Below are positions 1,281 to 26,082 of a DNA stretch of 26,082 nt, one piece after another. Origin of the DNA: Jaapia argillacea MUCL 33604. Its lineage: Eukaryota > Basidiomycota > Agaricomycetes > Jaapiales > Jaapiaceae. The notes below the pieces were generated by a model. The model was given only the letters and a program-made list of their open reading frames with translations, did not search any database and was not told where the DNA came from. The DNA lies in NCBI GenBank assembly GCA_000697665.1, contig KL197717.1, positions 1,301,967 through 1,328,048 on the forward strand. Direction: 5' to 3'. The position numbers were made by a program, and so were the translations under genes. Each line of letters begins with the position of its first letter. Position 1 is the stretch's first letter.

Positions 1281-4200
1281 ATGGCTCCTGGTAAGCGCAT
1301 TTGTTGCCCTCGAATGCATCTCACTGCTGACCTGATTTGAGCAGAACAGCACCATCATGTACGCCTGGTGCTCCAACCAAGTACCTCCAAGTCTCTCACC
1401 AATCGAACATCGACATGGTTTTGCATTCTCTACCTACTTGCAGTACTTCCCCTCACAGCCCTCCTGTCCATTCTCGCTGTGTTGCAGTCATTTGTCAAGC
1501 CTTCCCAGATGTTCTCACCAGCCACAATTCAATACTCCTTGTTTACGTTGGCGCTCTTGCTGACACTTACCTGTGTTTACTGTTATTCCACCCTTTCTCT
1601 GGTTTTACTCAGTAAGTCACTGGTTTTTGTTGCAAACATTGGTCATTCACCTGTTTGATACAGTGTCATGGCTTTGCCCTCACTTCTTCTGTCTACAATG
1701 CCTAGTACCTCGTGAGGGAAGATATATTTGACACCGTTCCAACATCTCACATCTAAGGCTGGATCAATACCAATGACTTCTCGACCTTCAACCATTCACC
1801 ATGTTTATCATGGGCACTGATTGCCACAATTCGTCAGTACCAGATGATGATCCCCTGAGAGTGAAAGCAAGATCCACTCTGATTTGTATGTACCTCACAT
1901 TCTCGTCCTCCTGTATCCTCTTACCTAATGTATTCATTAGTTGTTACCACTGAAACCACCACAGCCAAGATTCTTGCCACCCTCCACCGACACTGGCTAA
2001 TTCCATTGGTACATCTTCTCACACATATACTCACAACCTTGGGACAGCACCTGCAAAACATTCATCTACACAAGACCATCGGTAGCCTAGGCTTGGGACC
2101 AATGTCCCATCTGTTTCTGAGGATTTTAGTCCAAGGTGGTACAAGTAAGTTCAACTTCGTATCAAGTCTATGTCTGCTACTTGTGAGTAATTTGTGTTCA
2201 CTGTAGATGATCCTGCCCCTGAAGCCACTGCACCAACACAGGAACCTCGTTGCTCAACATGGGTTCGGAGCTGAGCCACAAACTCACAAGTACAGACAAC
2301 CTCAAATGTCACAAGATTTGCGGAGCACCAGCCAATGCATCTGATGGCTTTGAATCCAGTGGTGAGGAGGGAGACCCGAAAGGAAAGGGTGTGGAATCTC
2401 TTCTTTTGACAGGTCTGTCGCTGACTCTGGCAATCTTAGCCTCAGGATCATCTTGAGTGCCCATCAGTATTGAATCTGACAAGGAAGGACAACCATAGGA
2501 GAGACAAAAGACAGTTGGTGGCGGTAAGTTCTCATTTCTGTTGCTTGACATCTTGTCTTGCAGGTCAATATTCCAATGTTCACAGCTTCAAAATCCTGTC
2601 TGAAAGCCACCACAATTGTATCTGACAATGGCAAGGATGGGGACAATGACACAACTCCGATTGACAGCTCAGAGCCCCACAAGAAAAGGAGAGCATCGAA
2701 ACGTGAGTTGTATCATTGACAAATTTTTGTTTTCATCTGATCAAATATGCATCTTGGGTTCATCTCCTGAAGCTGGCTTGGTTGCACCATATGTTGACGA
2801 AGAAGATAGCGATGGTATGCTCAAGGATCTCGGTCATATCGCCACGCCACCTAAAGTCAAAGGCAAATCAAGTGCCACTGTGGACGTTTGACATTTCTTT
2901 GGCTCGCCATACACCCAAGACAACAGTGGCAAGCCACAGCAAGTCCATGATTGTAAGAAGTGCAAGTCAGTCATTGTTGTTACCTTCAAGTCTTCATAAT
3001 ATTCATATAATTTGCTACTCAGGGATAGATTCGCCAGTGGATGTACCATTGTTAGTGATGTCTCAACCTCTCGGTGCCATCTCACCTCAAGGCATCGGGT
3101 ACAGTGTTGGCTTTCTAATCAATGTACCATTCTTGACATCTGTCTCCACACAGAGTGATTACCTCTCTTGGTGTACTAAAAACAACTTCACCTTGATGCT
3201 AAGGGAAGATGTTGAAGCTCAGAAGGCAAAGGCTGATCTTAGGAAAACTCAAGCTACTCTTGACAGTCATCTCCACATGGAGGACCCCAGGAACGTATCA
3301 TCCCTTACTCTGATGATGCTGTCAAGTCAGCTGCAATTCAGTGGCTCATTGAGACGGACCAGGTTAGTGAACCTCTCAAAGTATCCTGGCCATGAGTTAA
3401 TCATCTATGTTCAGCCCATCAGTGCTCTTGAACATCCATCATTCACAAAGATGATTGACATCGCTTCATGTGCTAAGAATGGGGTCAAAATACCAAATCG
3501 CAAGGCTACCCAACGAGAGATACTCAACATATTTTATGACTATCTTGTTAAGATGAAAGAAAAACTTAATGTAAGTTCTCGCATGTCATTCTGGGTGGGC
3601 GAGCACTTAATGGATGTCAAAGTTTAGGGCCCTTCCGTTCGAGGGTTGATTTCGCTCATGTGTGATGCCTGGTAAGCGAGTAATGTTGATGGCTACTTTG
3701 CGGTCACTGCACACTGGATCAAGGAGAGATCACCAAACGAATGGGTTCTCAAAGGCACCATTATTGGCTTTGTGTGGATGATCCGTTCACACAACGGTAA
3801 GTGACTTGGCCAAGCCCTATACAAAGTTGCAGATCAGATAGGAATTGTGCACAAGGTAAGTGACTTCTGTCATCTCAGAAGGGTTAGGGTTAATGCTGTT
3901 CTGTAGATCTTCATGGTAACATCCAACAATGCCAGCCCAAACATGACAATGATGCAAAAGTTTTCCAAACACATCAGGAACACCCAGAAAGTGGATTACG
4001 ATGGCAGTAAACACCAGATTGGGTGAGATTTGTGGCTATTCAGTAACATTCAGATACTTACCATGTTGATATAGATGCCTTGCACACATTGTCAACCTTG
4101 CAATGTAAGCTGTTATCGCCACTCAGAGCAAGTCATCCCATTATGATCACCACAAACTGGATGCCCACATCCCCAATACATTGGCCAAAGTTTGTGATGA

Positions 4201-5783
4201 AGTTGGTCTTATTCAGGCAATCTCAGTCAAGGTGAGTTCTGGATGTCTTTCTTCGATCAACAAGCCTGTATTCATGTTGGTGTATCATCCAGGAGCGTTC
4301 TTCAAGCCAGTGGAAGGAGAGATTCCGTGACATCCAACTTTCAGCTGGAACTGTCAGCAAAGATGTGAAGACTCTCATCGTTGATATGAAAGTTCGCTGG
4401 TCATCAACGTACATGATGTTGAACCAGGCGTACAGTCTGCAAAAGGTAATTTTCATATCGCTTTTTGTGATTTGTTCCTGCTGACAATCACTTTGTAGAT
4501 CATTGAGAATTTCTTAATGGAAATTTCGCGAGTTGAGAAGGACAAAGACAAATCAAGAAAGCTGTATGAGCTCATACCTTCTCCAGAGGAATGGAAGAGA
4601 ATCAAGGTGTTCCAGTGTGTACTTGCAGTAAGTGGTCATTTTGATCATGTCAATGTATTCTCATGATTCATTGACTCGTCTGTTAGATCACTGACAGAGC
4701 CCAACAATGGTTCTCGTCAGAAACTTATCCTGCTCTTCATCTTGGTCTACCTGCCCTTGAAGAACTCCATGCCTTGTGGACAAAGCTCTAAACCTCCCTC
4801 AGGCATGACTCTCTCTTTTTGGCAGGGATCCAAGCTGGCCTCGATAAGATTGCTGAATACTACAACAAGACTGGTGATAATGATTCATACATATTCTCTA
4901 TTTGTATGTCTGTTGTCTTCCTTCACATCAATCTTCTAAAATTTGTTACATTCACAGTACTTGAGCCATCGAAATGCATGGCTCACTTTGAGAATGACTG
5001 GACGCCAATGTTATGCAAGCAAGTCCAACGACTCACAAAGGATGTTGTAAGTCTTGGTTCCTCTCATTGATGCCAAATACTGAATTTCCATTAGTTCAAA
5101 AAGTGACATCAAGAGGTCAATGCTGAGCGAGTCAGCCTGAATGTTGCCGCCACGGTCAAGAAAGCCAACAAATGCTGTTACTCAGGGGCCCTTGCAGATT
5201 TATCAGACAGTGATGACGACAATGACATTGATACCCCATTGACAACAGCCTGTACCCATGCAACGACATACACGGAAGAAGCTTGGGAGCGAGAGTATAA
5301 CAAGTATCTCAACCTTGACGAAGACATTCCCGATGGTATGTCGACTGTCAAGTGGTAGGGGGTATGTTATTCTCGTCTCTTACCAACTGCTTTACAACCT
5401 TCTCACCCTTTCAACAGCTCAATGCCCATTGGTTTCCAACATGGGCGTCTCTTGCACGGGACTACCTCGCCATCATGGCAACATCTGTCTCCAGCGAGCA
5501 AGCATTCTCAAGTGCTGGCATTACAATCACAAAGTGTTGTAACTGTCTTAAAGGGGACATTGTTGAAGCCCTTCAAGCTTTGAAGTGCGCCTTCCATAAC
5601 AATCTTTTCTTCTATGATACAGGGCCATCATCCACTACTGAAGAGGAGTCTGTGCAACAGGAAGAGCAGGAGATGGAGGATGCAGGTGGAGACATCCAAG
5701 GTTCTGATAAGTTTGATTTGATTCACCTTGATTTGGATAGTGATGCAGAAGAGGAGTTTGATGATGATTTTGGGGGGGCCTAG
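1281..5783 (+). pseudogene. hAT-family transposase gene, multi-exon, inactivated
   Basis: A cut-and-paste DNA transposase that would act in the nucleus on the ends at 627 and 5964. The likely start is ATG at 1281 in a short first exon, followed by GTAAGC at 1291; exon assignment before 2600 is uncertain. Visible domains in order: a BED-type zinc finger (Cys codons 2952 and 2961, C-x2-C; His codons 3078 and 3093, H-x4-H); the motif YFAVTAHWI near 3690; RWSSTYMML near 4395, the usual hAT R-W-x-S-T-Y block; and a C-terminal hAT dimerisation region from about 5420, with SVSSEQAFSSAG containing the conserved Glu, then an acidic tail ending at TAG 5781-5783. Several GT..AG introns lie between. In-frame stops occur at 2272, 2889, 3802, 4106, 4789 and 5104, each fitting CGA to TGA or CAA to TAA. 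The Lys-Arg-Arg-Asn motif after the Glu reads Lys-Cys-Cys-Asn. Confidence 0.88.
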
Positions 5784-6807: not shown

Positions 6808-7138
6808 GCTGTGGGGAACCCAATCCACCTACGAACGGAATCGCGCTGTTATACCATTTCGACCGTAACTCCATCGAATCAAGCATATGACATCCCCTCT
6901 CCTCACAGCTGTTTGAATCCAATAGTTTCATACAATTTCGGACATGACATCCCATTCCCTCACTCCTGACAACCACACGACACTCAGTCCCATCTCAAAC
7001 AAAACTTGACTTTCAGTAATTTGCTCCCTCGTCATTCTGAACTCGGAAATATCCAAACGTCCGAAGGCACGCCCAACCCTCCTAACGAATAGATCGTATT
7101 CCGGATGGTGTCGGAATTTCCTATCTGCTCCAACTCTG

Positions 7139-7436
7139 AGATTCCTCCTGAGACCAGATGTCCACCATTTCGCCTCCATGTCGCTCAGTATCGGGATTTC
7201 CGATGTTATCGAGTTAGGACCATATTTGACCCGACGATACGACTCCGATGCACCCGATGCAAGCATTCATAGGAGTCCGGAATATCGGAATTCGACTCGA
7301 GACTAGTTGTTCACCATCTCGCCTCCACGTCATTCAGTATTGGGAATTCCGACGTTATCAAGTCGGGACCGTATTCAATACGACGATACGATTCCGAGGC
7401 ACCCGATGCCCATGATTCTAGGTGTCCGAAACATCG
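7139..7436 (+). repeat. Two-copy imperfect tandem repeat, period 149 bp
   Basis: The block starting CGCCTCCATG at 7171 recurs as CGCCTCCACG at 7320. Both copies carry a TTCCGA-GTTATC segment, CGACGATACGA and CACCCGATG in the same order. It lies upstream of the TATA box at 7946, where enhancer duplications are common in LTRs. Confidence 0.8.
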
Positions 7437-7945
7437 AGATTCAACTCAAAGCTCTCTCTCCACCAATTTGGACCTATGACTTTGCACGTCTCGGGAAACC
7501 CGATGATCTTATCAGGAAGCTCCTTATCTCGACGTTCCGAGTCCCAATACACTGCCACAACACGTTCCTATGGTCCGGTACTCCAGTGTTTACGAATCAC
7601 TTACATCACTTTCCATATCCTTCACTTCTCAACTTCTCTACCTTGTGTTTGTGCTCTCAAGTCAAGTCCTCAATCAAGAAGACACTCGATTTAGGTTTCC
7701 GAGATAAACTACTACAGATCCTGCTCCTCCTGGGTCTTCTGTGCCATTCCCCTTTCAGTCCAAGACTCCTTCGCCAGGACTTCACTCGCTTCAGAGGATA
7801 CTTAATATGTTTTACCTCACTTGCTTGACTTTCGACTTGTCCCCTGTTTTGTTGTGCACTCTTTCACTTGAATCACCCCCATGCTGTATCAAGTTCACCC
7901 TATCCTTTGTCCTTTCCTCTTTCATAGCTACCTCGTGTACTTAGG

Positions 7946-7953
7946 TATAAAAG
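7946..7953 (+). promoter_or_regulatory. TATA box of the LTR-like insertion
   Basis: TATAAAAG. A transcript start would be expected about 30 bp downstream, near the CTACTGGAACAATAAC sequence at 7964-7979. No coding region follows, so it would drive a non-coding transcript towards the downstream half of the LRR gene. Confidence 0.5.
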
Positions 7954-8597
7954 CCTGTCTGTAGCTACTGGAACAATAACAACCTTTCGTGATCTCTCTC
8001 GTCCTGAGTTGCTCTCGGATGTTGCTCACCCTCACGCTCTCAATCTAAGCCTGTCCTTGTGTCACTCTCTAGTGTTCCCTTGGATTCTAACTGTCTCAGG
8101 TTTCAGACTTCTTTGTTTTCGGGATTTCCGACTTTTCTTACTTTCGACTTGTGTTGACGTTTCCCGACCTTCACGTTCTATCTCGACGCTTTCTTTCGAT
8201 CCGATCCGTTTCTATTTCGTTCCGATTTGTGTTTCCCTTTCATTTCTATTCTGACGTCTTAGTTTCAATTCATTTCAATTCAGATCTTCGTTTTCTATTG
8301 TTTTTGTTTGTTTCCGTCACACGTCCTACAGTTATATTCGTCGTATCGCATCCTTAGATTTCCGAGTAGTCCGACCCGATTCCGGACGTTTCGGACACAC
8401 GCACAAGTACTCGCTCAAGCACATCATCCTCCTGGGATTACTCCTCCACCATCGCTGTGTTGAGTCGAGTTTCCCTTGTATTTCAACTACTGGACACCTT
8501 CCTTTCGGACCCTACCTAGTCTGTCCTACACATTCCTGCATCCCGAAACACTGATCCCTCCCGTTCTTTGATTTCCATTGAAGACAAACAACTACCC

Positions 8598-8602
8598 CTC
8601 AC
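8598..8602. repeat. Probable target duplication of the LRR-gene insertion, right copy
   Basis: CTCAC, matching 6803-6807; LRR coding sequence resumes at 8603. Confidence 0.55.
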
Positions 8603-9404
8603 TTGGAACTTACACACCCCGAGTACCCCACAACGCCCTCCTCCACAACCCATCTCATTGCATACATCTCCTCACCCCAATGTTGGCTAACAACACTCAA
8701 ATGTAATGGCAATGCTTTGGGGTTACATGCTGTCCAAGATATCATGGTGGCTATTGATAAATACAATTATTCGCTATGCAAAGTCAAGTTGTATGCGAAT
8801 CAGTTGGGCAAGGTCAATACGAATGCACAGGATGAAGAGGATCCTAAACCAGCTCTATGGGATGAATGTAAGAAACTCCTTGTTAGGATCCTTTATCAGA
8901 ATGAAGATCTCAAATCAAGAACTGAAAGAGATGCTTTGGCTTTATTGGATGTTTCAAGGATGTTACTCCTCAAATCCTTGTCATCTATGAACCCTGACCC
9001 AAAGGATGTCATGGAGAAAGTGACAAATTCATATCCTCCTCCAACACCAATGTTGTCTCCAGTCATTGCTCCGATCATCAGAAAGATGACTTTTATGGGT
9101 GCTTTTGCATTCTTGCAGTTACTGATTGAGTTACAGCTCATGATACTGGGTCTCACTGCACCTGTGCTGAGTATAGCTCAACAACTTAGGATCTTTGCAT
9201 ATGCATCAGATCTTCTGACTCTCCCCCATCTCTCCACCTCCATTCTCAATCTTCCCGCCCAGTTCATAATCAGACTCTTGCAGTCAGAGAAATTGTGTTG
9301 GACACACTAGTGGGGTCAAATGTCAGAATGAGATGTTGAGAAAGCAGTGGTTGGAGAGTATTGGATGTGATGCATTCAAGTTCAAATGTTGGGACACTAT
9401 TTGA

Positions 9405-11838: not shown

Positions 11839-12593
11839 ATACCTCCAGAATGTCATGATGACTTGAAGGCAAAAGTTACCCCACCAGTCATCTGCCTGGT
11901 CAATCTGCCATGCGGGTGTGTAATCCCCAACAGATTTGTCAAGGTAAGCAATCCACCCCTTCCAAGTACTAGGCACTATTGTAATTTTCTATAAACATTC
12001 CAGGCTGCTATGTATGAGCACGGCTCCACATTTCTAGGTGGGCCTCCAAACAAGTACCACCATTTGCTATACACCTGTTGGTCAAAGGGATGTTGGGGAA
12101 TGATTATTGATGGGAATGTACAAGTCTCATCAACATATCTGACACTGGGTTGTGATATGGTCATTCCCACATCTCTCACATCTGAAATGATGGAATCATT
12201 CAAATCTTTAGCAGATGCAATACACTCAAGTTCACCAGATACCCTAGCTATCATGCAACTCTCCCACACCAGACAACAGTCACCTAACATCCTCAGAGGA
12301 TGTCTCCCTTTCGTGCCTCCTCTAGCCCCAAGTGCAGTTCACTTGGGAAGTGCAAATCAATGTCCCTCCCCCATTGGCCAATTGGTGTACAACCTTCTTT
12401 TCCAAACTCCTTGCCAAATGTCAGCAGAAGATATTGACAATGTAGTTGTTGAGTTTGTGCGAGGTGCAACATTGGCAGCTAAGAGTGGCTTTGATGGTGT
12501 GGAATTGCATGCATCAAATGGATGTAAGTTCTATATTTTCACTGTTCACATCCAAAACTGATTGATTGGTAGGATGTAGATCTGCTGGCTGAG
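11839..12593 (+). pseudogene. Old Yellow Enzyme-type NADH:flavin oxidoreductase, N-terminal fragment
   Basis: An FMN-dependent ene-reductase family fragment, normally a cytosolic enzyme of about 370-420 residues; about 210 codons remain. Exon one (to 11943) includes LPCGCVIPNRFVK. An intron at 11944-12003 follows, then exon two (12004-12523) with AAMYEH, GGPPNKYH, CWGMIIDGNVQVSS, IMQLSHT and FDGVELHASNG. The His and Asn of H-A-S-N correspond to the substrate-binding pair of the family. A second intron (12524-12579) leads to GYLLAE, where the reading stops at the long-inverted-repeat element (about 12589). The barrel's second half is not found in the window. Five Cys codons (in GCVIP, GCDM, GCLP, NQCPS, TPCQM) stand where relatives usually have Arg, and the usual GRQ after SHT reads RQQ. 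The true start codon is not visible; a stop lies just upstream in frame. Confidence 0.82.
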
Positions 12594-13640
12594 ACACATC
12601 CGAGCATCAACCAAATGGGTGATTTCCGCCTTTTGGAAATATTTTTAGTAGGAAAATAGTATTGTGGAAATGTTGATGTAAGTATCTAGGATTGTAGCCC
12701 CCATCTAGGAGACCCCAGAATGGGTACCCTTACCTGATTCTAGCCACCATAGCTCTGGCAAAATGCAAAACATTTTTTAAATGCGACACTTTTCAACTTT
12801 GTTTGCCTTGTAGCAGCACAACCAGTGACACTACAAGTGAAACAGTGATAGATCTAGGAAGCCCTAGGTCCAGGCTACCTGCTGAGACCAACATGTCAAA
12901 TTTTCCAAATTTGATAATATTCCATATAGTACCTGGTTCATGTTGGTGTTTCAATGTTTATCACTGAAATTTCCATTTTAGGCATAGTATATTGGTCACA
13001 TGACACCATAGCAACATGAATATATTTTCCTGATTTTTCTTGATTTTGTTGGCTATATATATTGAGAAATTGCCAATTTGGGACATTATATCACCAATCA
13101 CATGGGGTCAAAGCACTGGCCCAGATGAACAGCATTTTATTCTGGTTGTTCCTGATTTTCTAGCATTTTTCCTAGCTGGATTGATTGATTTACCATTTTG
13201 GGAAGGTTATATGACCAGCCAAACAGTACTAAAGTACCTCTACCCTCTATCCTACCCTAGTATAATTTATTCTGATTTTTCCTGATTTTTCCTGCATGTT
13301 TTCTGGCTGTATTAATCAGTTTACCTATTTAGGCAGGTCATGTGATCAGCCAAACAGTACCAAAGTACCCCTACCCCCTACCCCATCCTAGTATAATTTA
13401 TTCCGATTTTTCCTGATTTTCCCCGCATTTTTATGGCTATATTGATCAATTTACCTATTCAGGCAGGTCATGTGACCAGCCAAATAGCGCCAAAGTGCCC
13501 CCATGCTTTTCTATCCTAGCAAAAATTTTATTCCTATTTTTTTACGATTTTTTATGATTTTTAACAGGCTGTATCAACCCATTTACCATTTTGGGAAGGT
13601 CATGTGACCTGACAAGCAGCACCAAATTGCCCCCCTACTG
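12589..13640 (+). repeat. Left inverted arm of the 7.2-kb element
   Basis: Pairs with 18775-19833 in inverted orientation. Shared landmarks, in order from the outside, are CTGAGACAC, GGTGATTTCC, the GATGTAAGTATCT box, GGGTACCCTTACCT, GCAAAATGCAAAA and a tandem-repeat zone. A further related repeat unit occurs near 14030-14190 after an unrelated segment. Confidence 0.7.
13100..13640 (+). repeat. Tandem repeat of about 129 bp in the left arm
   Basis: Four units, each with GGTCATGTGACC-like and CAGCCAAACAG-like segments followed by CCTAGTATAATTTATTC and ATTTTTCCTGATTTT. The GGTCATGTGA position falls near 13206, 13335, 13464 and 13597. Copies are progressively diverged. Confidence 0.78.
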
Positions 13641-14289
13641 AGGACCCATGCAAATAGATGAGAGGGTCAAATAGTTGTCCTGGTCAAAATGGCACTCAAA
13701 ACCCCACCAGGTAGGATATCATCCAGTTCAAAATTAGGTCGAGAGTACTGATTTCTGAGGGTTAGTCCACTGGGTCAGATATATGTCCAGGTAATGCACA
13801 CGGTTGGGCAAAAAAAATCAGCGGCGGACCCTGCAAAAGGGCTCTGGCCCCTCCAGACGGATGGGTCAGATACACCATCCCAGTCAAAATGACCTCTCAA
13901 AAGCCACAAGGTCAGATAAAATCCAGGTAAAACCACCCGATCTCGGACAAAATTTGTCCAGGTAAATCAACTCAAATTCCCAAAGATTTGTATCCTACCC
14001 TTCTGTCTATTCGCACGGGCCCTCCCTGCTGCTGCCCCACCCTACTGGAATTTATTCCGATTTTTCCTGATTTTTTCCAATATTTTTCCTAGCCCTATTG
14101 GTTCATCTACTATTTTGGGATGGCCAAACAGCACCAAAGGCCCTACCCCACCTACTAGAATTTATTCCCATTTTTCCTGATTTTCTGAATATAATATTGC
14201 AGGGAGAACTGGCAGCACTTTGTTATGTTTGATCAGAGTAAAGTTTCCTCAACATTGTAATGTTCAGTTTGGGCAAGTTTCCTAGTACA

Positions 14290-15300
14290 TTATATTAAAG
14301 CTACAGGGACTGGTGTCCTACCCCTGAGCCTCAGCGCAAGAAGTCCAAAACCTTCACCACCCCCAATCTTAATGGCAACCAGAGCCAAGCCCCCCTGAGA
14401 AGCCAGAAGTTGGGGAGACAATCTCCACATGCTGAAGGACTCGCCAACCCTGTAAGTCCTCCCTCCTTCTCTTTCAAGTTCATCTAATATTCCATTCCAG
14501 CAGCAGGTGCAATGTCCCAAGCTGGTATTGTGAAGAACAAAGTTGCGCCTACCGCCAAGCTGGACAAAAAAGGTAAGTGCCAGGTGCTTTTCTGACCATT
14601 TGTTTTCTCTTCACTGATATTGATTACAGCTGCAGCCCACAGAGCAAGCAAGCCACGACAAGGAATCAAAAGGTATGTTCTTCCATCTATTCCTGCACTC
14701 CAATCCCATCCAATTTGCCACACCCAGGATCGAAGTCTGGAGTTGTCAAGGTGATTGTGAATAGTAAGTATGAGCTATTCTTCTCATTTCCTGCAAATGG
14801 CTTACCCCCACCTTTCATGTAGTTTCTACTCATATGATTGTCATTACACCAACTTACCCTGTTATCCCCAAGTTTGCTGATCTCGACTCACACAGCCAAT
14901 TGATGGGTAGTGCTCCTGCAACTCCCAATCCCCCCACTGTCCCACTTCCCTCCAAGATCATCCCTGAGTCCCATTGTGCTGTGAGTGGTTCTTCAATTAT
15001 CACCCATCCTCTGAATTGACAATCTCAATAACAGCAAATTTTGCAGTTGAGAGCCAACCTTGTTGCTCAACAACAGGTCACAGACACACTCCAAGTCAAG
15101 CTTGATGACCTCACTCAATGTCATGATACCCTCACTGCACGACATAATGCCCTCAGTACCTGCCACAATGCCCTCCTTCGACACCACGATACTTTGAACA
15201 AAAATGTCGGGGCCTACATTGAGAAGCAAATCAAACACCTCATTGGGTTATCTACCCAGACAATTGAGGCTCAATTGAAGGAGGTTCTGGATTTGTGTGC
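14290..15300 (+). pseudogene. Unrecognised intron-containing coding remnant inside the long-inverted-repeat element
   Basis: A run of exon-like segments separated by short introns with good signals: 14452-14500, 14573-14629, 14673-14727 and 14764-14822 (donors GTAAGT or GTATGT, acceptors CAG or TAG). Segments read, for example, MSQAGIVKNKVAPTAKLDKK (ATG 14512), AAHRASKPRQGIK and, from 14834, MIVITPTYPVIPKFADLD, ending at a TGA near 15018. A further frame at 15041-15300 (LRANLVAQQQ...) is a coiled coil with heptad repeats. The phases of the introns do not all fit one frame, so it is probably decayed. I recognise no family. It may be a host gene captured by the element, cut at its 3' side by the gag-bearing retroelement. 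Confidence 0.45.
15122..15205 (+). repeat. Four 21-bp coding repeats (heptads)
   Basis: In the frame open from 15041, four consecutive heptads start with His: HDTLTAR, HNALSTC, HNALLRH, HDTLNKN. The DNA repeats every 21 bp. The pattern predicts a short coiled coil. Confidence 0.75.
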
Positions 15301-16000
15301 AAGTGGATCGTCCTTTATCGATCTCGGTGAAGTCTTTCTCCAAAGTTTTGTAGAACTCCTCAACATCCAAGGTTGATTTGTCTGCCAGATTATAACTGTT
15401 GATACAGTTCATGGCCCAGGACCCTGCTGGTCCATCCTTCATATAGGATAGGATGAAGGCGATTTTGGAAAATTTGGTAGGAAATTCCTTTGGTTTGGCA
15501 GCAATAAATAGTCGAGTTTCGGAGATGAATTTAGTGGTTTTCTTCCTATCTCCTGTGAATGGAGTAGGAGGAGCCAGCTGTGGTCCTTTCGAATCTCCTG
15601 CCATATCGTCATCTGAATCTTCCAGTTGGTTATCTGGATTGGGTGAAGGTGACCCTCTAGGTGGATCAGGGGATGAAGATCGAACAGGTGGAGGACAATA
15701 TGATCTGAAGTGTTGGGGGATTGATGAAACAATAGGTGTTCCAGTTGGATACTGTGGAGTTGGTTCCTGAATTTCTGGAATGAATATGGATGATCCTACT
15801 ATTGTTTGTTCTGGAGCAGTTGCAACAGGTGTGTATACCCCAAATGCTGCCAGCAGAGTAGGTGTTCTAGGGACCTCAAGAGATAGTGGTGTTGTGCTTC
15901 ATGGTGATCTGGAAGCTTTGGTGATTCCTCTCCTTGCTTTCTCTTTGGCAATTCGTGGAATAGATGGACTGGGTTTTACTAGTTGTTGGAGATAACTCTA
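15248..16000 (-). pseudogene. gag: Retrotransposon Gag fragment (Ty3/gypsy type)
   Basis: Gag would be the capsid-type protein packaging the element RNA in the cytoplasm. The minus-strand frame reads through a Pro/Ser-rich N-terminal part (SIPRIAKEKARRG, PPRGSPSPNPDNQLEDSDDD), then ATG at 15604 with MAGDSKGPQLAPPTPFTGD and KIAFILSYMKDGPAGSWA, the usual retrotransposon Gag core (PxxFxGDRxxxxxF ... KIxFxLSYMxxGxAxxW). After DFTEIDKGRS the family pattern is lost and a stop comes at 15248, so the C-terminal part and any CCHC knuckle are missing. An in-frame TGA at 15899-15901, where CGA would continue the frame, also disrupts it. The start is uncertain; the frame is open upstream of 15604. Confidence 0.72.
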
Positions 16001-16035
16001 GTACTGGGTTTTACTAGTTGTTGGAGATAACTCTA
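15968..16035 (+). repeat. 35-bp direct tandem duplication
   Basis: ACTGGGTTTTACTAGTTGTT and the 13 bp after it occur at 15968-16000 and, identically, at 16003-16035. It lies at the 5' edge of the gag-type frame. Two identical copies in otherwise decayed sequence imply a recent slippage duplication. Confidence 0.93.
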
Positions 16036-16628
16036 CAGTGTTGGTAGGTTTTTGTGAGGTCCTCCATTTTCTCCCGTCCAAACTGTGATTGGTTTGCCTT
16101 CCAGGCACGGAGTGTCGTAGATTTGGTCATATGTGAGATTATCTCCATGTTGGTTTAGATCTTCTTGAACTTGACTAAGGGTGGGAAGCATCCACTTGTT
16201 GGGAAGGGTGAGGAATCTACTGGATGGAGGTAGGCCTTCAGTGATGACATGAAGAGGTTATCTCAAAAGATAACCAATTTATTGGTTCTGAGTGACATAT
16301 TCTTTCTCTAGTTGTTGTACAATTTTGCTGAGTGTAACACAAAAGAAGATGGTGATATTAAGGTTGATGAGATGAGTGAATAGGAGGGTGAATATGTCAT
16401 GAGTGACTGGGGATAATCTGATTTTTTGGATGGTAGTCCAAAATAGTCAATCAACAATGAAGTCAATGACTATGACAAGAAGATTGGCGAAGATAGGATG
16501 AACCGTAGTGAGAATGGTGATAGATGTTTGTAGGGGTGGACCCTGATAGTGTCTAACATTCTATAACTTTCATTGGATAACGAGGTTAGAGTAAGTTGCA
16601 AGGTAAGTAGAAGGAGATGTTGTTCAAG

Positions 16629-17036
16629 TGTTAAAGTCGTTACTTCAACAAAGTACCTGAGGTCAAGACTTGTACTTCTCTGATGATACTTAGGTTGCAA
16701 TGTAGAGTGAGGCAGTATGAGGATGATAAGAGAGAGGAAACCAGACAGAGACCAAGTCAGACTTTGTAGGAATGCAAGTTAAGACTTGTATTCATAAAGT
16801 GAACAAGATGGGGACTATTAGCAAATACAGGCAGGTATTTATACTGGATAGAAGCACAGTCTGTAGTAGGCACAGTCCATAGTCTGTAGTGATGATGAGT
16901 AGGAAAGAGTTGAGGTGAGTCAAAGGAAATAGGAGTCCGTAGTCTGTAGTCTGCAGTCCATGGTTTTTAGTAAATGATGAAGTGAAGTGAAGTAAAGAAA
17001 AGTGAAAATAGTCGTACTGAAGCATGGTTTGTAACA
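16629..17036 (-). repeat. LTR of the gypsy-like element (408 bp)
   Basis: On the minus strand it starts TGTTAC (17036) and ends TTTAACA (16629), giving a TGTTA/TAACA terminal inverted repeat. A TATA box lies at 16836-16843. The terminal part beyond it matches the partial LTR at 25927-26082: GTTACTTCAA, GACTTG and TACTTCTCTGATG occur in both at the same spacing. Confidence 0.78.
16836..16843 (-). promoter_or_regulatory. TATA box in the LTR
   Basis: TATAAATA on the minus strand, about 195 bp from the LTR start, as expected for a U3 promoter driving the leader and gag. Confidence 0.6.
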
Positions 17037-17602
17037 CTCAGAGTTCTTACAACTGGGAGAGATTCACCAATCTCTTTCTGCACATCCAGACTGGGTGTGG
17101 TGAGATTTGGAACAGGGTCTTTGGCGATCTGCCGGTTCCTCGGGATTCAGAGAACTATCACTGTACATTCATCCCAAACCCAGCCTTTGTTGAAGCCCCA
17201 CCTCCTGAATCACCTCCCTTCCAACTCTCCTCATTCATTGCATCATCTCCCAATCACGTCCCAACCTCTCCAATTGCTGCACCATCATCTCCCATTGCAC
17301 CCAACACACCTTCAAAGGCATTGACTCCAGCTGTTGCAGAATGGTCGCCCTTGTCTCCACTGTTGCCTGTTTTTCCCCTGACATTGCTTATCCCAATTCC
17401 ATCATCTCCATTTATCCTTTGCAGTGATTCAGAAGCAACACCGCTGCCTACTTGCCTCCTGCCCTCACCTCTTGCTCCTATCACAACTCCAGTTGCTACC
17501 AATTCACCTTCTCAGGGTTCTCCATTTGCCCCTCTCCCATGCACACCCCCCTGTAGAAGGTCCTGCTGCACTGCGGTGGCAGTGAACTGGTCAGCTGGCT
17601 GA
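17037..17602 (+). pseudogene. Pro/Ser-rich coding remnant next to the LTR
   Basis: An open frame that begins inside the LTR (nominal ATG 17024) and runs to 17602. The first part (NWERFTNLFLHIQTGCGEIW, then VFGDLPVPRDSENY) looks like genuine protein sequence. The rest is a low-complexity Pro/Ser/Thr/Ala region (SPIAAPSSPIAPNTPSKA) like a linker. No family is recognised. It may be the continuation of the coding remnant at 14290-15300, separated by the retroelement, but the join cannot be shown. Confidence 0.35.
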
Positions 17603-17925
17603 TTGAGGAATAGGACTGGCGGTAGAAGGTCAAGAAGGAATATTTTGGTGCAACTGGAGTTGAGCATACCCTTTCTGATCATTTTGGGCAGGAATAGTGC
17701 CATCTATTCATTAGCTTTATTTACTTTTAATCCCCTTATAAGCTGAGAGACCCTCAGGAGTAGCTGATGCCTTTGGGGCTGAATACATTCAATGCCAGCT
17801 GTTGGGCTGTCTCTGAAGTAATATTATGCTCCTTGTGAAGATGTTGCAATGTCTGGATCCCAAGTGTATATCCAGAACTGCATGACACCAATTTTGATTG
17901 CTAGTTCTTTCTATCAACCATAACC

Positions 17926-18311
17926 ATGGCTCATCCCACAGCATATCCTGAAACACTACAACTGTACCTCTCCCATTACATGTGCTTGGTCTTTCAGGCT
18001 GAGAAGATCTTGAGGAGCATTCTGGAGTCCTTCTCCTCGCTCAATAATGGGTGACCAGGGTGAATGAGCTCCGTGTAAGTGGACTTTTAGTTATATCTCT
18101 CAATTCAATGTTCATATCAGGACAGAATGAGCACACTTGGAATGAGATGGCAATCCGCTGCTATCCACACACTGTGCCTGATGAAATCTTTGACTGGCAG
18201 GCTTACTGCAGCAGGGTGGACTCTTGGTTTACAGTGTATCATCACGTGGAAGATGAGATGGATGAGGGAGAGAATGGAGGAGGGAAATCATTTTGTTGGA
18301 GGAGTGTGTAG
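17926..18311 (+). pseudogene. Unrecognised coding remnant, two exon-like parts
   Basis: ATG at 17926 opens MAHPTAYPETLQLYLSHYM and runs to a TGA near 18050. A neighbouring frame carries WVTRVNELR to a donor at 18075 (GTAAGT; acceptor CAG 18120, 46 nt). The next part reads NEHTWNEMAIRCYPHTVPDE and FDWQAYCSRVDSWFTVYHHV, ending in an acidic segment at 18311. The composition looks like real protein, but no family is recognised. It lies inside the 7.2-kb element and could be captured host sequence. The mid-gene stop indicates decay. Confidence 0.35.
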
Positions 18312-18328
18312 TACCTGCAGGTGCCATT

Positions 18329-18540
18329 GGCCGACACATTAACAACCAACCAATATTGGAGGAGCAAAGGAGACACCAATGCTATGCAGACAGCCATTAC
18401 ATTAATAGTGAGCAATTTAACATTGGCTGACACATTAACAACCAACAAATATTGGGGGTGTAAAGGAGAAACTAATACCATATAGATGGCCATTACGTTG
18501 AGCAAATAATTCTACATCAGCCAATATGTTAACAACCACT
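18329..18540 (+). repeat. Tandem repeat of about 95 bp, 2.2 copies
   Basis: GGCCGACACATTAACAACC at 18329, GGCTGACACATTAACAACC at 18425 and a diverged AGCCAATATGTTAACAACC at 18518. Each is followed by AATATTGG-G, AAAGGAGA and GGCCATTAC-type segments in the first two copies. Confidence 0.82.
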
Positions 18541-18774
18541 TGACCCCCAGCAGCTGACAGTTCATTATTGTAGGCATTTCACAGTGGCTGATTCGATTAT
18601 TGTACACTAGTCCCTGTTAACTAGTACAATACTGTGGTAATTGACCATAGACCATGGTGTATAAAGTACCAGACTTTCTTTGTACAAAATCCACCTGGTG
18701 TTTCTGTAGACCAGAATCTGAGAAAACCAGATATGTTTTTTGTACAATCTACATTTCATATTACAATATGTTAT

Positions 18775-19833
18775 TAGGATAGGGTGGGGGTCAAATAAAT
18801 TGGAATAAAACTCTGTTAGGTTAGGGTAGCACTTTGGTGTTGTTTGGCAGATGATGTCATAAACCTAAATAGGCAACTGGCTGATGGTGGGTCAGATAAA
18901 TTGGAAAAAATTCTATTAGGGTAGAGGAGGGGGGGCTCTTTGGGCTATTTGACAGATGATAAAAGATACCCAAATAGGAAAGTGATCATCAGAGGGCCAA
19001 ATAATTTGGAAAAATTTGGAAAAATGCCAAATAAAATTTTATTAGGGTAGGGGGCACTTTGGGGTTGTTTAGCAGATGATGTAATGTGCCCAAATAGGAA
19101 AGTGGTTATTGGAGGGTTAAATAAATCCGTAAAATTCGGAATAAATCAGAATAAAATTCTTTTCAGGCAAATGAGTGCTTCCATTATGTTTGCTTGATGA
19201 TATAAGACCCCTAAATAGGAAATTCAGTCAATATGGGCCAAATAAAATATGGAAAAATCAGAATAAATAGGAATAAAATTATTCTGATATAGAGTGATGG
19301 TTGCTATGGTGGTTGCTTATATAAGCACCTTTTTTTGTAACTTATGACTTTATATATGCAAATAGCTCAGACATCTCAGGCGATTCTGATAAAATAGTGG
19401 CACTTATTTTGGTTGCTATGGAGACATTGTTACTTACCATATATGGTAGATATACATTTCTTTAGAATTTGCTTGTTACCTCAGATAGATTACAGCCATG
19501 AAATTTACTAAATTTGGAAGTTTATATAATATAGGTGTCAATGGATAGCCTGAAGGTAGGGGATCCCAAATATACCACCGTCTTATCTGTAGCATCACTA
19601 GTTGACCTGCTATAAGCCAAACAAACTGCAAAAGTGTCCTGTTATAAAATCATTTTGCATTTTGCTGGAGGTATAGTGTATCAAATGAGGTAAGGGTGCC
19701 CATTCTAGGATCTCCCAGATGGGGGCTACAATCCTAGATACTTACATTAGCATTCTCATGACTTTCATTGTTCACTGAAACACTCACTGAAAGGTGGAAA
19801 TCACCAGTTTGATTGATGGTTGGGTGTCTCAGT
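18775..19833 (-). repeat. Right inverted arm of the 7.2-kb element
   Basis: Inverted partner of 12589-13640. Its inner half holds four or five tandem units of about 105-125 bp, each with AAATAAATTGGAATAAAA-like, TTAGGGTAG, CACTTTGGGGTTGTTT-like and CCAAATAGGAAAGTG-like segments. The outer part carries the box at 19720-19747 and ends GTGTCTCAG. Confidence 0.7.
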
Positions 19834-20371
19834 GAAGTGGGATGACTCATTTTAGAACCTGGAAGGTGGGGGCTTCAATCTCAGATACTTACATCAACCA
19901 TTTTGACAATTTCACTTTTACCAGAAGCAACAAGCTGATTCACCAATTTGTGTTTTGCTGGGCACTCAGAGAAGGCAGGTCAGTCATGACAGTGTTCTCA
20001 GACATCTTTCACATAGGTCCATGACTTGAGACAATTGGGTTGAGGTGAATATGAAGAGTGGTTTTCATCTACTTTGGATCTGAAGTTGATTGATGACCTG
20101 TTTCCTCTATGTGTCCACCACAGATTCCAGAAAACCACTCTTCACAGTTGCCTCAACCCAATTGTCTCAAGTCATGGACCTATGTGAAAGATGTCTGAGA
20201 ACACTGTCATAACTGACTTACCTTCTCTGAGTGCCCAGCCAAACACAAATCAGTGAGTCAGCTTGTTGCTTCTGGTAAAAGTGAAGTTGTCAAAATGGTT
20301 GATGTAAGTATCTGAGATTGTAGCCCCCACCTCCCAGGTTCTAAAATGAGTCATTCCACTTCACTGAGACA
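19825..20371. mobile_element. Foldback hairpin element: 242-bp arms, 63-bp loop
   Basis: Left arm 19825-20066 and right arm 20130-20371 are reverse complements with about 15 mismatches by eye (roughly 94% identity, no gaps); loop 20067-20129. It starts TGTCTCAGTGAAGTGG and ends with its inverse. Each arm contains the GATGTAAGTATCT box of the neighbouring 7.2-kb element (19867-19895 inverted, 20301-20329 direct). There is no credible coding potential. A transcript across it would form a very long double-stranded stem. The left terminus overlaps the right terminus of the larger element, so the two are related and adjacent or nested. Confidence 0.88.
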
Positions 20372-20667
20372 TCTGACCACGCCCCTCCTTTGAGGGGTTC
20401 TCCCACCCCATATTTCATCCACACTTTTCAACCAACCAGCACGTGCCTTGTTTGTTCTGGGTGGTGCCATTTCCCACTACTTCTTTCTCGCAATCTGAGG
20501 TTTCTTATTCCTCTATCAAGGGTACAACAATAATAACAAGATAGGGCAGTCGACAAAGCTACGAGGTTGAGGATAATACAACTATAATAATAAGAACATT
20601 GTCCTATGCATTTCAGAACTCCTGTAGTTCCTCCCACCAAATCCTGGTCTTCAAGTCCAGTTCTGCC

Positions 20668-21895
20668 AATCAATTGTCATCCTCTGGTGCACTTTGAAAA
20701 ATATTTGCTTGTCAAAGTCCCTCAGGCCTCAGTCACCAGATTGTCCCTAGCCCAGAACTCCAGGAAGTGCAACATACATGAACATGCTTGGTTTACCTTA
20801 TGGAGGTGTGGCAATATTGATGGTGACATGGGAGGGTTTGACCTTGGGCCCGATAGTCTATGAAAGCTAACGCTGCGGTGACAGGATACTGTCAATGCCG
20901 AACGGTACAGCTGATGCCTTGGTTGTTCTTTGTCGCCACCTCTACCGGTCCAACACCTTCATCGAAACCCTCTAAATGTGTTGCCCTTATGACCAGTCTG
21001 CATTGTGGGAGGTATTTCAACGTAACGATCAATTCTTGTCCATGACAGGGCTCATCTGGATGAAGAGACACATCAACGATTTTGCCTCTGCACCGCTCGT
21101 GATATCTAAATCTGTCTGTACATTCGATGTCAAGATCACTTTCATCTCCAGGGTGGCCCACAGCAAGTTCTATCTTATCAGGCAGCTTGTTTCGCTTCAT
21201 CTTCATCTTGCCCCACCCCTTTGGTCTAACAGCAACACCATAGTGCTCAGGCAATGTCAGTGGCTTTGATTGAATTTGATCCTCTGCTTCACAAATAAAG
21301 GGCTGTACTTCTTGTTCCTTGCAATGTTTTTGAATGGCTGCTTCCTTCCACTGTTTCCAAACAGCATGGCGTCACTTGATGAGTGCAACACCATTCCATG
21401 GCAAATCAAATCTGTCTGAGAACACTGGGGGTTGGAGAGGACTAGGTTCAGAGCACGTCAATGTGGTCCTGCCATATGCATCTGTGTCGTAGATGAGTGA
21501 GGACTCAGACATCTCGCCAAACTGTGTCTATTGCCCTTACCTGTTCTTGGAGGATGACAACTTCAGCGCCGACACCACCCTTGGCCATGTCGACTGGATG
21601 GTAAAGAACCTTGCTTGGGGAAGCAGCAACTGAAGGGAAGTCAGTGGAAATCACTGCAGAGGACGACAATTATCCCCCCGAATGAGAGTGCTATATTCGA
21701 CTCTCCCCGTTTCTACTTTCCAATACTGATGTTCCTTGACAGGGTTGCCCAACATGTCTTGGCTAATATCAAACACTCATTGAAGCCAACATGGCTCTTC
21801 TGCTGCCCCTCCATTGAGGCCTTCTTCAACCCCACCTCTTGTCTACAATTTTTGACTAACAACCATACCTTGTTCCTTCCCCTTTGGCTCACCAA
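20668..21895 (-). pseudogene. PIF1-like DNA helicase, C-terminal two thirds, decayed
   Basis: A superfamily 1B helicase of the PIF1 type, abundant in Agaricomycete genomes and often carried by Helitrons. Reading the minus strand: LILAKTCWATLSRNISIGK (about 21790-21720), which follows the Walker-B region; then SFGGIIVVLCSDFH (motif III area); FPSVAASPSKVLYHPVDMA; AEVVILQEQVR; LPWNGVALI and RHAVWKQWKEAAIQKHC; LTLPEHYGVAV from about 21270; IVDVSLHPDEP; HLEGFDEGVGPV; and finally ALAFIDYRAQGQTL (motif VI area) and LRDFDKQIFF. Stops at 21374-21372 and 20894-20892 replace expected Arg codons, and there are frameshifts. The Walker A segment is absent, so the fragment is N-terminally truncated. No rolling-circle initiator domain is seen, so assignment to a Helitron is not proven. 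Confidence 0.8.
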
Positions 21896-22046
21896 ATAAT
21901 CATCTTAGAGCATCATACCATGTGTTCTTTTCAAAGTATTATAACTGTCTACAAAGCTTCTGTAACTGTTAAAAGAATTTACCTCTCCTGAATTTGTTGC
22001 AAATCAAAGGAGGGGTGAATGACGACGCACGTCGGCGCTTCCCTAG

Positions 22047-22127
22047 TCAATCAAACCAGTGATTTCCACCTTTCGGTGAGCAGTGTTTCAGTGAAAAATA
22101 AAAATCATGAGAATGCTGATGTAAGTA
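22047..22127 (+). repeat. Extra copy of the inverted-repeat family terminus
   Basis: TCAATCAAAC at 22047, then GTGATTTCCACCTTTC, TGTTTCAGTGAA and ATGAGAATGCTGATGTAAGTA match the reverse complement of 19743-19816. Similarity stops at GTAAGTA. No inverted partner was found to its right. Confidence 0.75.
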
Positions 22128-24032: not shown

Positions 24033-25924
24033 CTACCAGATAGTCTGATAGGAGTATAGAGAAGTCCAGTTGTTTACAAAAAATGCATTACACTGTTCAA
24101 GCACTTTATGACTCTCCCAGGAAGTGTCGAGCTCTTTGGGAAATTTGGGAACAAGTTGACAACTCTGGCGAACATCAGATAGACGTACCACAGCACCAGG
24201 AGGAGTACCGTCAGCTTGTGGGCGGGGTTTGCTAACCTCATACATCATATGGTTGGGATCAGCGGCTCCAGCCAGTGGGCTATACCACTCAACATGAGCC
24301 AAAGGCTCCTTTGGCCACTGACGAGGGGTGGAAATGTGATCATGGAACTCTGAATCCCAAATCTTGGTAGGTAGCTTGAATATGCAGCGTACGTGTCCCA
24401 CTCTAGTCCCTAAAACAAGGAGTCAGAAAATGCAATATAGTCATCAGAAACAGGATATTTAAATTATACCTGCAAGGCCTGTGGAAAGCGCTTCATCACT
24501 GACCGCAACAATAGCGGTGTCGAATCATGATGGTTTTCCTTTGAGAGCTGGAAAGGCTTTGATTGCGTCCTTCTCCTCCTTTTGATCATCCAAGGAAGGA
24601 GGAGAGAATTTGATGTTATGAAAAACATCAAGATGATCAAATGGGAGGTCGTAACGAGTGGGTGTCATGGAGGAGAGAGGGGCTAGATATTTTATGAGAT
24701 CTCTTGTAAAGCCTGGTGCAGAATGAAGAGTCTCAATCTTGTCTAAAGAGAAGCCAGGAGCCTGAGGATGTTTTGTAAGCTTGATGGGGGAGCCTCCTTT
24801 AGTTTTGAGGATTGGAGGTTGAGGTTTAGTTGCAGATTGCTGATGTTCTCTCCATTCCACATAGCTAGTAAAGGATGCCACCTTTTCCTGTTGTGTAACC
24901 CACTTGACCATTTGCGGGCGTTCATCTTTGTGGTTTGTAGAACACCATGCATCCTTAGCCAAGTCAATGTGAAGACGCTCAAACATCTCTGTGTTGTAGT
25001 TGTCAGTGGTACCATATAGACATATGGCGTTGATATAGTGAAGCAAGGAGTGGAATTTAGGGATATTGAAGTTTTGGCATATGCCAAGGGTGATAAAAAT
25101 ATCTCTGTGTTGATGGAATGTATCTAAGGCAGTTTGCATGTAGCTGAGAGTGGTGTCATCATGGGTTGGGTTTTGAGCTTGGTAGATGAAATCCAAGAGA
25201 GAGCGACAAGCAATGATTCCTCCTTGGGTATTTTGCAGATCAAGCAGGCAAGAAGGATCCTAGCCATGTCCTTCCTTTCCAATCCAGATATCTGGGACAA
25301 GGTGGAAATTCTGTTCTTGAAATGACAGGTACCAAAAGATGGGGGAAGGCATCATATACATTCGTCCAGCTCCGAGCTACCCATAGCTGACTTGCACCAA
25401 GTCACCAAGTGTTTAAAGATGCCCTGATAGAGTTGGTGAAGAACATCGGGTGTCATAGATTCGTGAATATTGGCAAATGGAAAACCTTCCCAGAAAGGTC
25501 TGTGAATGCATCCAGAGACATCCCAGGACATACAGAGCTTGGAGAACTCTGTTTTACTAGACACCTCCTTCTGAGCGGAGCGAATGACATTCAAAGTCCA
25601 ATCTGATGTTCTAGACACTCCAGGTGTGGAGTCCCCAAGCTCCTTGTTTGGGTGTTGGCATTTGGGACAAGTACCACTCTTGGCACAAGTCAACAAACAC
25701 TGCTCGGGATAATCAGCAACATGGGCGGCAAGGGTCGGGAAGATGAGGCATACACTGCCATCTCCACAAATCATCTCCACTCCCTTCTCCCCAGCAATGT
25801 GTAGGGGCTCCAGATTGGTGTGCATTGACTCATGAAATAGGCACTGCATCTTGGCCTTTTTCTCAGCTTTGGATAAGGACGATCCCATGATTTTGTCAGT
25901 GGACAGATATCCCAACAAAACCAT
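24033..25924 (-). pseudogene. Plavaka-type (CACTA-like) transposase, C-terminal part, inactivated
   Basis: The transposase of Plavaka DNA transposons, widespread in Agaricomycetes. From 25924 on the minus strand: MVLLGYLSTDKI, LFHESMHTNLEPL, EMICGDGSVC (with a conserved G-D-G), LAAHVADYPEQCLLTC, a C-x2-C site in TCPKCQHP, then FWEGFPFANIHESMTPDVLH followed by QLYQGIFKHLV. After a TGA at 25354-25352 the frame continues with CLPPSFGTCHFKNRISTLSQ. A frameshift near 25200 leads to NFNIPKFHSLLHY, TTDNYNTEMFERLHID and AKDAWCSTNHKDERPQMVKW. A TGA at the end of the frame near 24525 interrupts GKPS-FDTAIVAV. A 60-nt intron (24469-24410) precedes GHVRCIFKLP and a conserved tail (HVEWYSPL, VLEQCNAFFVN) to 24033. 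Both TGAs fit CGA. The N-terminal part is cut off by an LTR starting at 25927. Confidence 0.85.
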
Positions 25925-25926
25925 TC

Positions 25927-26082
25927 TGTTAAGATCGTTACTTCAATGAAGTATACAATGAAAGACTTGATACTTCTCTGATGTTACCTAGGCTACAGCC
26001 ACAGAGTAGAATGACAAGAGGATGAGAGACTATCAGAGGTTTCCAGACAGATTGATCAGACAGGGATCAAGTTGGAACAATG
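25927..26082 (-). repeat. Partial LTR, same family as 16629-17036, cutting the Plavaka gene
   Basis: Starts TGTTAAGATCGTTACTTCAA, aligning with TGTTAAAGTCGTTACTTCAA at 16629. Similarity continues through TACTTCTCTGATG, a TTACCTAGG/TACTTAGG segment and CCAGACAGA. The window ends about 156 bp in, so it is unknown whether this is a solo LTR or a full element. The two copies are clearly diverged. Only its U5-side end is visible. Confidence 0.78.

Follow-up and report, generated by a model that had tools for sequence, protein, structure and literature searches.

The question raised by this 26,082-base stretch of the Jaapia argillacea MUCL 33604 genome (contig KL197717.1, positions 1,301,967 to 1,328,048; 44% G+C; hereafter the window) is what its two long inverted, repeat-bearing arms are. 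A first-pass annotation, made from the sequence of the window, took 12589-19833 for one undescribed 7.2-kb element with an exon-bearing centre. Here, we report that the window probably holds two independent, damaged copies of a non-autonomous foldback family that shares its A-type ends with a KDZ (Kyakuja-Dileera-Zisupton) transposon and may be driven by KDZ transposase. Searches covered the whole assembly (43.7 Mb, 95 contigs), and 20 stretches of 7.8 to 10 kb each were taken around genomic copies of 12589-12900, the block earlier read as a terminus (here called the box).

The inverted arms with tandem repeats were confirmed. Comparison of the window with itself gave an inverted pair at 12669-12877 and 19754-19546 (78.6% identity; E 2e-33), a second self-comparison gave an inverted arm pair of 257 nucleotides (nt) at 73%, and over the whole left (A) and right (B) arms 727 of 1208 aligned bases are identical (60%). 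A 131-base tandem repeat occupies 13136-13634, and a profile built from four of its units found units of the same kind in both arms, six in the left and four, inverted, in the right; in all, 136 units were found in 39 of the 41 sequences covered by this profile search. The alignment extends beyond the repeats into the 200 bp earlier taken as terminal, which are in fact inner, and arm-related sequence is widespread elsewhere (at least 46 matches to the box, including the window's own two). The hairpin at 19817-20379, earlier described as a smaller neighbor of the element, had at least 67 matches in the genome, from 26 scored candidates.

The positions 12589 and 19833 did not survive as ends of the element. 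When the 80 bases just outside each of 26 boxes were aligned to the sequence that the family has there, 23 boxes (two of them the reference rows themselves) scored higher than any of 300 shuffles; in L014, L016, and L019 the match was limited to the nearest 40 to 48 bases, and no such match was seen for the left arm of the window, L012, or one L021 row. The sequence that continues outside the boxes corresponds to the hairpin at 19817-20379. Because homology continues outward of the boxes, 12589 and 19833 are internal and the element had been read inside out. The true outer ends lie at 14315 (CACCAGTCCCTGTAGC) and 18605 (CACTAGTCCCTGTTAAC), both marked by CACYAGTCCCTGT (the CAC end). A search with 14185-14330 matched the window and loci at three other places, and in each the similarity breaks off at window base 14315; independent loci thus share one boundary, with unrelated sequence beyond it. 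The 13-mer CACYAGTCCCTGT was found 18 times in the genome and its reversed pattern 5 times; by eye, the sequence that follows is like the foldback family at 14 of the 18 sites and unlike it at 4.

Left and right arms come from separate copies, each of its own subfamily. The box of A is 91% identical to that of L009, and the box of B is 89% identical to that of L025; in a tree of 25 boxes, A and B fall into two clades with 100/100 support, and forcing them together costs 150 log-likelihood units (approximately unbiased [AU] test, P of 1.4e-39, with groups drawn after the identities were seen). In this tree the nearest row to either arm of L018 is the other arm of L018, and the arms of L024 behave likewise. 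A and B are thus not partners, because they stand in different clades, whereas the arms of L018 and L024 pair as those of one element should. We conclude that 12584-14315 is a half copy (A), which has lost everything inward of about 12584-12589, and that a second copy (B), broken and in the opposite orientation, consists of 18605-20379 and 22047-22127 (Table 1). The hairpin and the extra terminus of the first-pass annotation both exist, as parts of copy B rather than as mere neighbors. Neither a GAGG-type end, the second end found in other copies, nor a convincing partner heptamer for A or B was found in the window.

Table 1. Features of the foldback copies, their inserts, and the sequence between them (window positions)
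Feature	Position	Strand	Remark
Copy A, one foldback arm with truncated inner side and outer CAC end	12584..14315	-	Closest to L009; stop shared with three loci
Inner box of A, earlier taken for a terminus	12595..12960	+	Internal in the family; no outward homology in this copy
Six minisatellite units of A	13025-13116, 13136-13262, 13266-13393, 13397-13521, 13527-13647, 14051-14152	+	Profile search
MITE-like (miniature inverted-repeat transposable element-like) insert in arm A, 385 bases, inverted ends GAGGRCCCRTGCRAATAG	13640..14024		L009 and L052 lack the insert at the same site
CAC end of A, CACCAGTCCCTGTAG	14301..14315	-	Minus-strand reading
Stretch between the copies, outside both	14316..18604		Gene-like exons and Ty3/Gypsy remnant; beyond both CAC ends
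Copy B, first part: CAC end, arm, box, central hairpin	18605..20379	+	
CAC end of B, CACTAGTCCCTGT	18605..18617	+	
Four minisatellite units of B	18818-18911, 18914-19028, 19044-19155, 19176-19277	-	Profile search
Inner box of B	19546..19833	-	
Central hairpin of B	19817-20066 and 20130-20379		Two 250-nt arms, 93% complementary
Nested insert in B, 1667 bases	20380..22046		L024 and L025 show uninterrupted sequence
Stump of B's second arm (extra box copy)	22047..22127	+	Continues hairpin sequence across the insert; 87.7% inverted match to 19739-19816

Less damaged copies elsewhere in the genome show the full anatomy: a CAC end, a subterminal stretch, a minisatellite arm (units of about 105 to 131 bp), the inner box, and then the mirror image out to a GAGG- or CAGCC-type end, with a central hairpin in many copies. 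L009, L017, L018 (whose center is unresolved N), L024, and L025 are palindromes with arms running outward from a hairpin-type center, and L053 is a palindrome with 343 bases at 98.8%. The family thus has the long, tandem-repeat-bearing inverted arms of foldback elements, of which A and B are broken copies, and the foldback-type, non-autonomous character proposed earlier fits it. The second end is GAGGCRTCCCTGTAGC in A-type copies, L026 and L051, and GAGGGGTCCTGGTAAAC in the B-type copy L053; a third type, D, has CAGCYGCTGTTGTAATA opposite CACCAGATGCTGTAG and is seemingly young. Spans with two ends measure 1.56 kb (L026), 2.1 kb (L028), 2.4 kb (C9), 2.8 kb (L009), 2.9 kb (L053, with a 621-base gap), 3.1 kb (L017), and 3.2 kb (C11, known from its ends). 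The flanking heptamers agree at 7 of 7 positions in the C11 copy and at 6 of 7 in L053 and L026. When 16 CAC flanks were paired with 13 GAGG flanks (208 pairings), 3 pairs were exact and 6 agreed at one mismatch or fewer, against 0.04 and 0.27 expected from shuffled heptamers; joining the outer flanks of one pair gave an open collagen-like frame. A duplication shared across L052 and L010, with one mismatch, was counted as possible chance.

Three further observations concern single loci. The D-type palindrome at C9:1351367-1353727 (L060, L070, and L061) has a center of about 640 bases, unrelated to the usual hairpin, which may be a captured or inserted piece. A single 20-kb element bounded by L013 and L015 (C17) was considered and set aside; the two are sister rows in the tree, with 1321 bases alike at 93%, and since this likeness spans the box and the hairpin side, each looks like a foldback copy of its own. 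In L012, an 800-base inverted repeat (3042-3843 and 4158-4937; 80% identity) lies beside a half foldback copy.

The A-type ends lead to KDZ transposons, for which the genome has 71 matches. In the foldback copy L014, a KDZ match also lies 2.1 kb inside a GAGG end, and this end matches one other place in the genome, C30:190609 (67%; E 1e-11), where a KDZ match is 2.2 kb away. A correctly oriented CAC end follows at C30:203351, and the 12.7 kb of C30:190608-203351 are flanked on both outer sides by CCCTTCG, a 7-bp target duplication without mismatch. In the 2.8 kb read there, the C30 element carries KDZ frames (E 1.5e-34 and 4e-8) and a CxC2 frame (E 1.4e-41). The GAGG pattern occurs 14 times in the genome (8 of the 14 were examined), against 4 times for the reversed control, and GAGG ends about 2 kb from KDZ matches were also found on C34 and C24; at C24:168957 the distance is 1.8 kb, and a CAC end 39 kb away has a flank that does not match. 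An end predicted from this spacing near C29:211600 was found in a 500-base stretch at 211606, as AAGGCATCCCTGTAG with one letter changed. The first-pass annotation had proposed a search for copies with clean target duplications and for an autonomous relative with the same termini: some copies have such duplications and some do not, and a KDZ-coding element, that of C30, shares the ends of the A type only. As a separate observation, the genome has 25 matches to TET/JBP dioxygenase, 17 of them above the cut-off; several share a strand with KDZ matches at a distance of about 2 kb, and no TET/JBP match is listed inside the C30 element.

Copies of the family also exchange parts. L017 joins an A-clade box to D-type ends, and parts of copies therefore recombine. 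The KDZ-type copy at C29:211606-235549 has GACCTGC beside its CAC end and GGTGTTG beside its GAGG end, and that at C36:330234-350123 has GGTGTTG and GACCTGC, so that the two hold each other's 7-bp duplications. Recombination between the two copies would explain these flanks, as would an assembly misjoin inside the repeat. L050, on the inner side of the C36 CAC end at a distance of 7 kb, gave no Pfam match in the two frames scanned; its region has Gypsy-like frames and a run of N.

The cases of L017 and of C29 and C36, and the many copies that are halves or lack matching flanks, could be turned into a different account, in which minisatellite palindromes spread by recombination or gene conversion and ended by chance in KDZ-derived sequence. 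We consider this unlikely, given that the copies share sharp ends while their flanks are unrelated and that duplications are much more frequent than expected by chance. Foldbacks driven by a CACTA/EnSpm-type or Plavaka transposase are less probable again. The CAC end resembles CACTA ends, and CACTA/EnSpm was our first thought from its CACTA/CACCA sequence; a Plavaka transposase gene also lies in the window. The duplications here are 6 to 7 bp, not 2 to 3 (extracts of PMC12730594 give 3 bp for fungal EnSpm, 2 to 3 bp for Plavaka, and 8 bp for Zisupton), the other end is of the GAGG or CAGCC type, and the gene found between such ends is KDZ; CACTA/EnSpm was dropped on these grounds. Neither CAC..GTG termini with a 3-bp duplication nor Plavaka termini with a 2- to 3-bp one were seen, and the Plavaka termini given in the same extracts (TGT..ACA or CATCA..TGATG; PMC12730594) do not fit.

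What lies between the copies does not belong to either of them. The center, described earlier as enclosed and possibly captured, is not cargo of the arms, because it falls beyond the CAC ends of both copies; host gene fragments inside the ends, as in Pack-type elements, are accordingly not what 14316-18604 represents. An 88% copy of 14338-15230, roughly the first 900 bases, occurs at C32:194678-195585, a place absent among the matches listed for the arm, box, and hairpin queries. Part of the center is a Ty3/Gypsy remnant: the minus strand has a capsid-like frame at 15248-15898 (E 2e-5, short of the Pfam cut-off), and L011 contains a further copy of 15282-17036 at 78%. A single composite element with ends at 12589 and 19833 and a captured center is therefore scarcely credible: its arms are indeed inverted and alike in box and minisatellite, but they fall in different clades, the boxes are internal and both CAC ends face the center, part of the center occurs without arms on C32, and the heptamers at the CAC ends show no duplication that would pair the two sides.

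Both copies carry inserts. The 385-base insert in arm A is not part of the foldback family. The insert in B has no target duplication, sits between A and T, has a subterminal inverted repeat CCCCTCCTTTGA, and ends 3' in CTAG preceded by a CGACG-CA-CGTCG hairpin; from this 3' end we take it to be Helitron-like.

Other features of the window lie apart from the two copies or beside them. A fragment of an old-yellow-enzyme-type gene (Oxidored_FMN; E 4e-12; profile positions 45 to 176 of 342) at 11995-12561 stops beside copy A, and the window frames scanned did not yield the remainder of the gene. A 149-base tandem duplication (79%) at 7150-7447 lies within 6810-8631, which recurs in L009 and L011 at 74 to 81%. 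The Plavaka transposase fragment (25352-25942, minus strand; E 1e-57) runs toward the window's end, and the ends of the element carrying it were not found.

If the two window copies are members of a KDZ-driven foldback family, the KDZ transposase would bind the shared ends and perhaps also repeated sites in the arms, and, by analogy with the Drosophila element Galileo, may move the foldbacks in trans by cut-and-paste. The arms may lengthen and shorten through unequal exchange of tandem units, again by analogy with Galileo, and the palindromes would break, recombine among themselves, and lose arms, which would leave half copies like A. A palindromic motif, GGTCAYRTGACC, has five sites in the left arm at two mismatches or fewer and none in the right arm; it was kept as a candidate transposase site, a possibility and nothing firmer, since other parts of the units are better conserved and the motif is absent from the KDZ-type ends read.

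Several points weigh against the KDZ-driven reading. The putative link to KDZ rests on shared A-type ends and on duplications, not on observed movement, and the part of the 12.7-kb C30 element covered by reading is about 3.4 kb, with its KDZ match split over frames. Exact or near-exact duplications (7/7 in C30 and C11, 6/7 in L053 and L026) fit the 7 to 8 bp of KDZ elements; L009, L028, L017, the C9 copy, and the KDZ-type element of C24, all two-ended, lack matching flanks. B-type ends were not seen on any KDZ element, and no KDZ gene was found inside D-type ends. The CAGCC (D) end had 23 matches at two mismatches or fewer (10 exact), against 18 for the reversed control; 2 of the 23 lie less than 5 kb from a KDZ match (C9 and C80), and neither is convincing as a D-ended KDZ element, one being outside the foldback and the other wrongly oriented with unresolved bases between. 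The GGTCAYRTGACC motif is absent, at one mismatch or fewer, from the KDZ-type stretches L044 to L047, L050, L071, L072, and L075, and is not the most conserved part of the 136 aligned units.

Foldback elements have been described in other hosts, among them FB in Drosophila. By their titles, Tetris (Drosophila virilis) is a foldback tied to emerging satellite DNA, and Tm1 (root-knot nematodes) is a Mutator-type foldback. The closest likeness is to Galileo, a P-superfamily element of Drosophila with long inverted arms, internal tandem repeats, and several transposase-binding sites, which extracts of PMC3688188 and PMC3573991 describe as first named a foldback from arm-only copies, later tied to a transposase, and likewise linked to ectopic recombination and rearrangement. 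Galileo differs in superfamily and host from the family described here, with its KDZ-type ends, 6- to 7-bp duplications, 105- to 131-bp units, and often a central hairpin. Fungal KDZ elements are alike in another respect: the extracts of PMC12730594 and PMC12810828 report a KDZ transposase with a CxC domain, with 7-bp duplications, CA..TG termini, and no inverted repeats in two Kyakuja families (PMC12730594), and with 139- to 241-bp inverted repeats and 4- to 8-bp duplications in Cryptococcus (PMC12810828). Subfamily D matches the CA..TG termini of Kyakuja, whereas A and B have CAC and GAGG ends, and imperfect inverted ends are present. Neither minisatellite arms nor palindromic non-autonomous forms of KDZ were found in these extracts. 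In the open-access literature searched, no publication joining KDZ with foldback, or foldback with a basidiomycete transposon, was found, nor any fungal foldback element as judged by titles and abstracts. Whether a Galileo-like foldback architecture arose independently in KDZ, as minisatellite palindromes whose subfamilies, three or more in number, have diverged in their ends, with KDZ transposases as drivers and with chromosomes also reshuffled by copy exchange (as the C29 and C36 flanks and the joined collagen-like frame would suggest), is to our mind evenly balanced.

The candidate undescribed element of the window resolves to two broken copies beside unrelated sequence. KDZ would be added to the unrelated superfamilies with long inverted arms that hold repeats, making a stronger case for convergence, whether through recombination or through multiplied transposase sites. 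KDZ elements, whose ends are sparsely described in the extracts consulted, gain a set of end sequences and duplications, and the copies offer test cases for transposon-made rearrangements.

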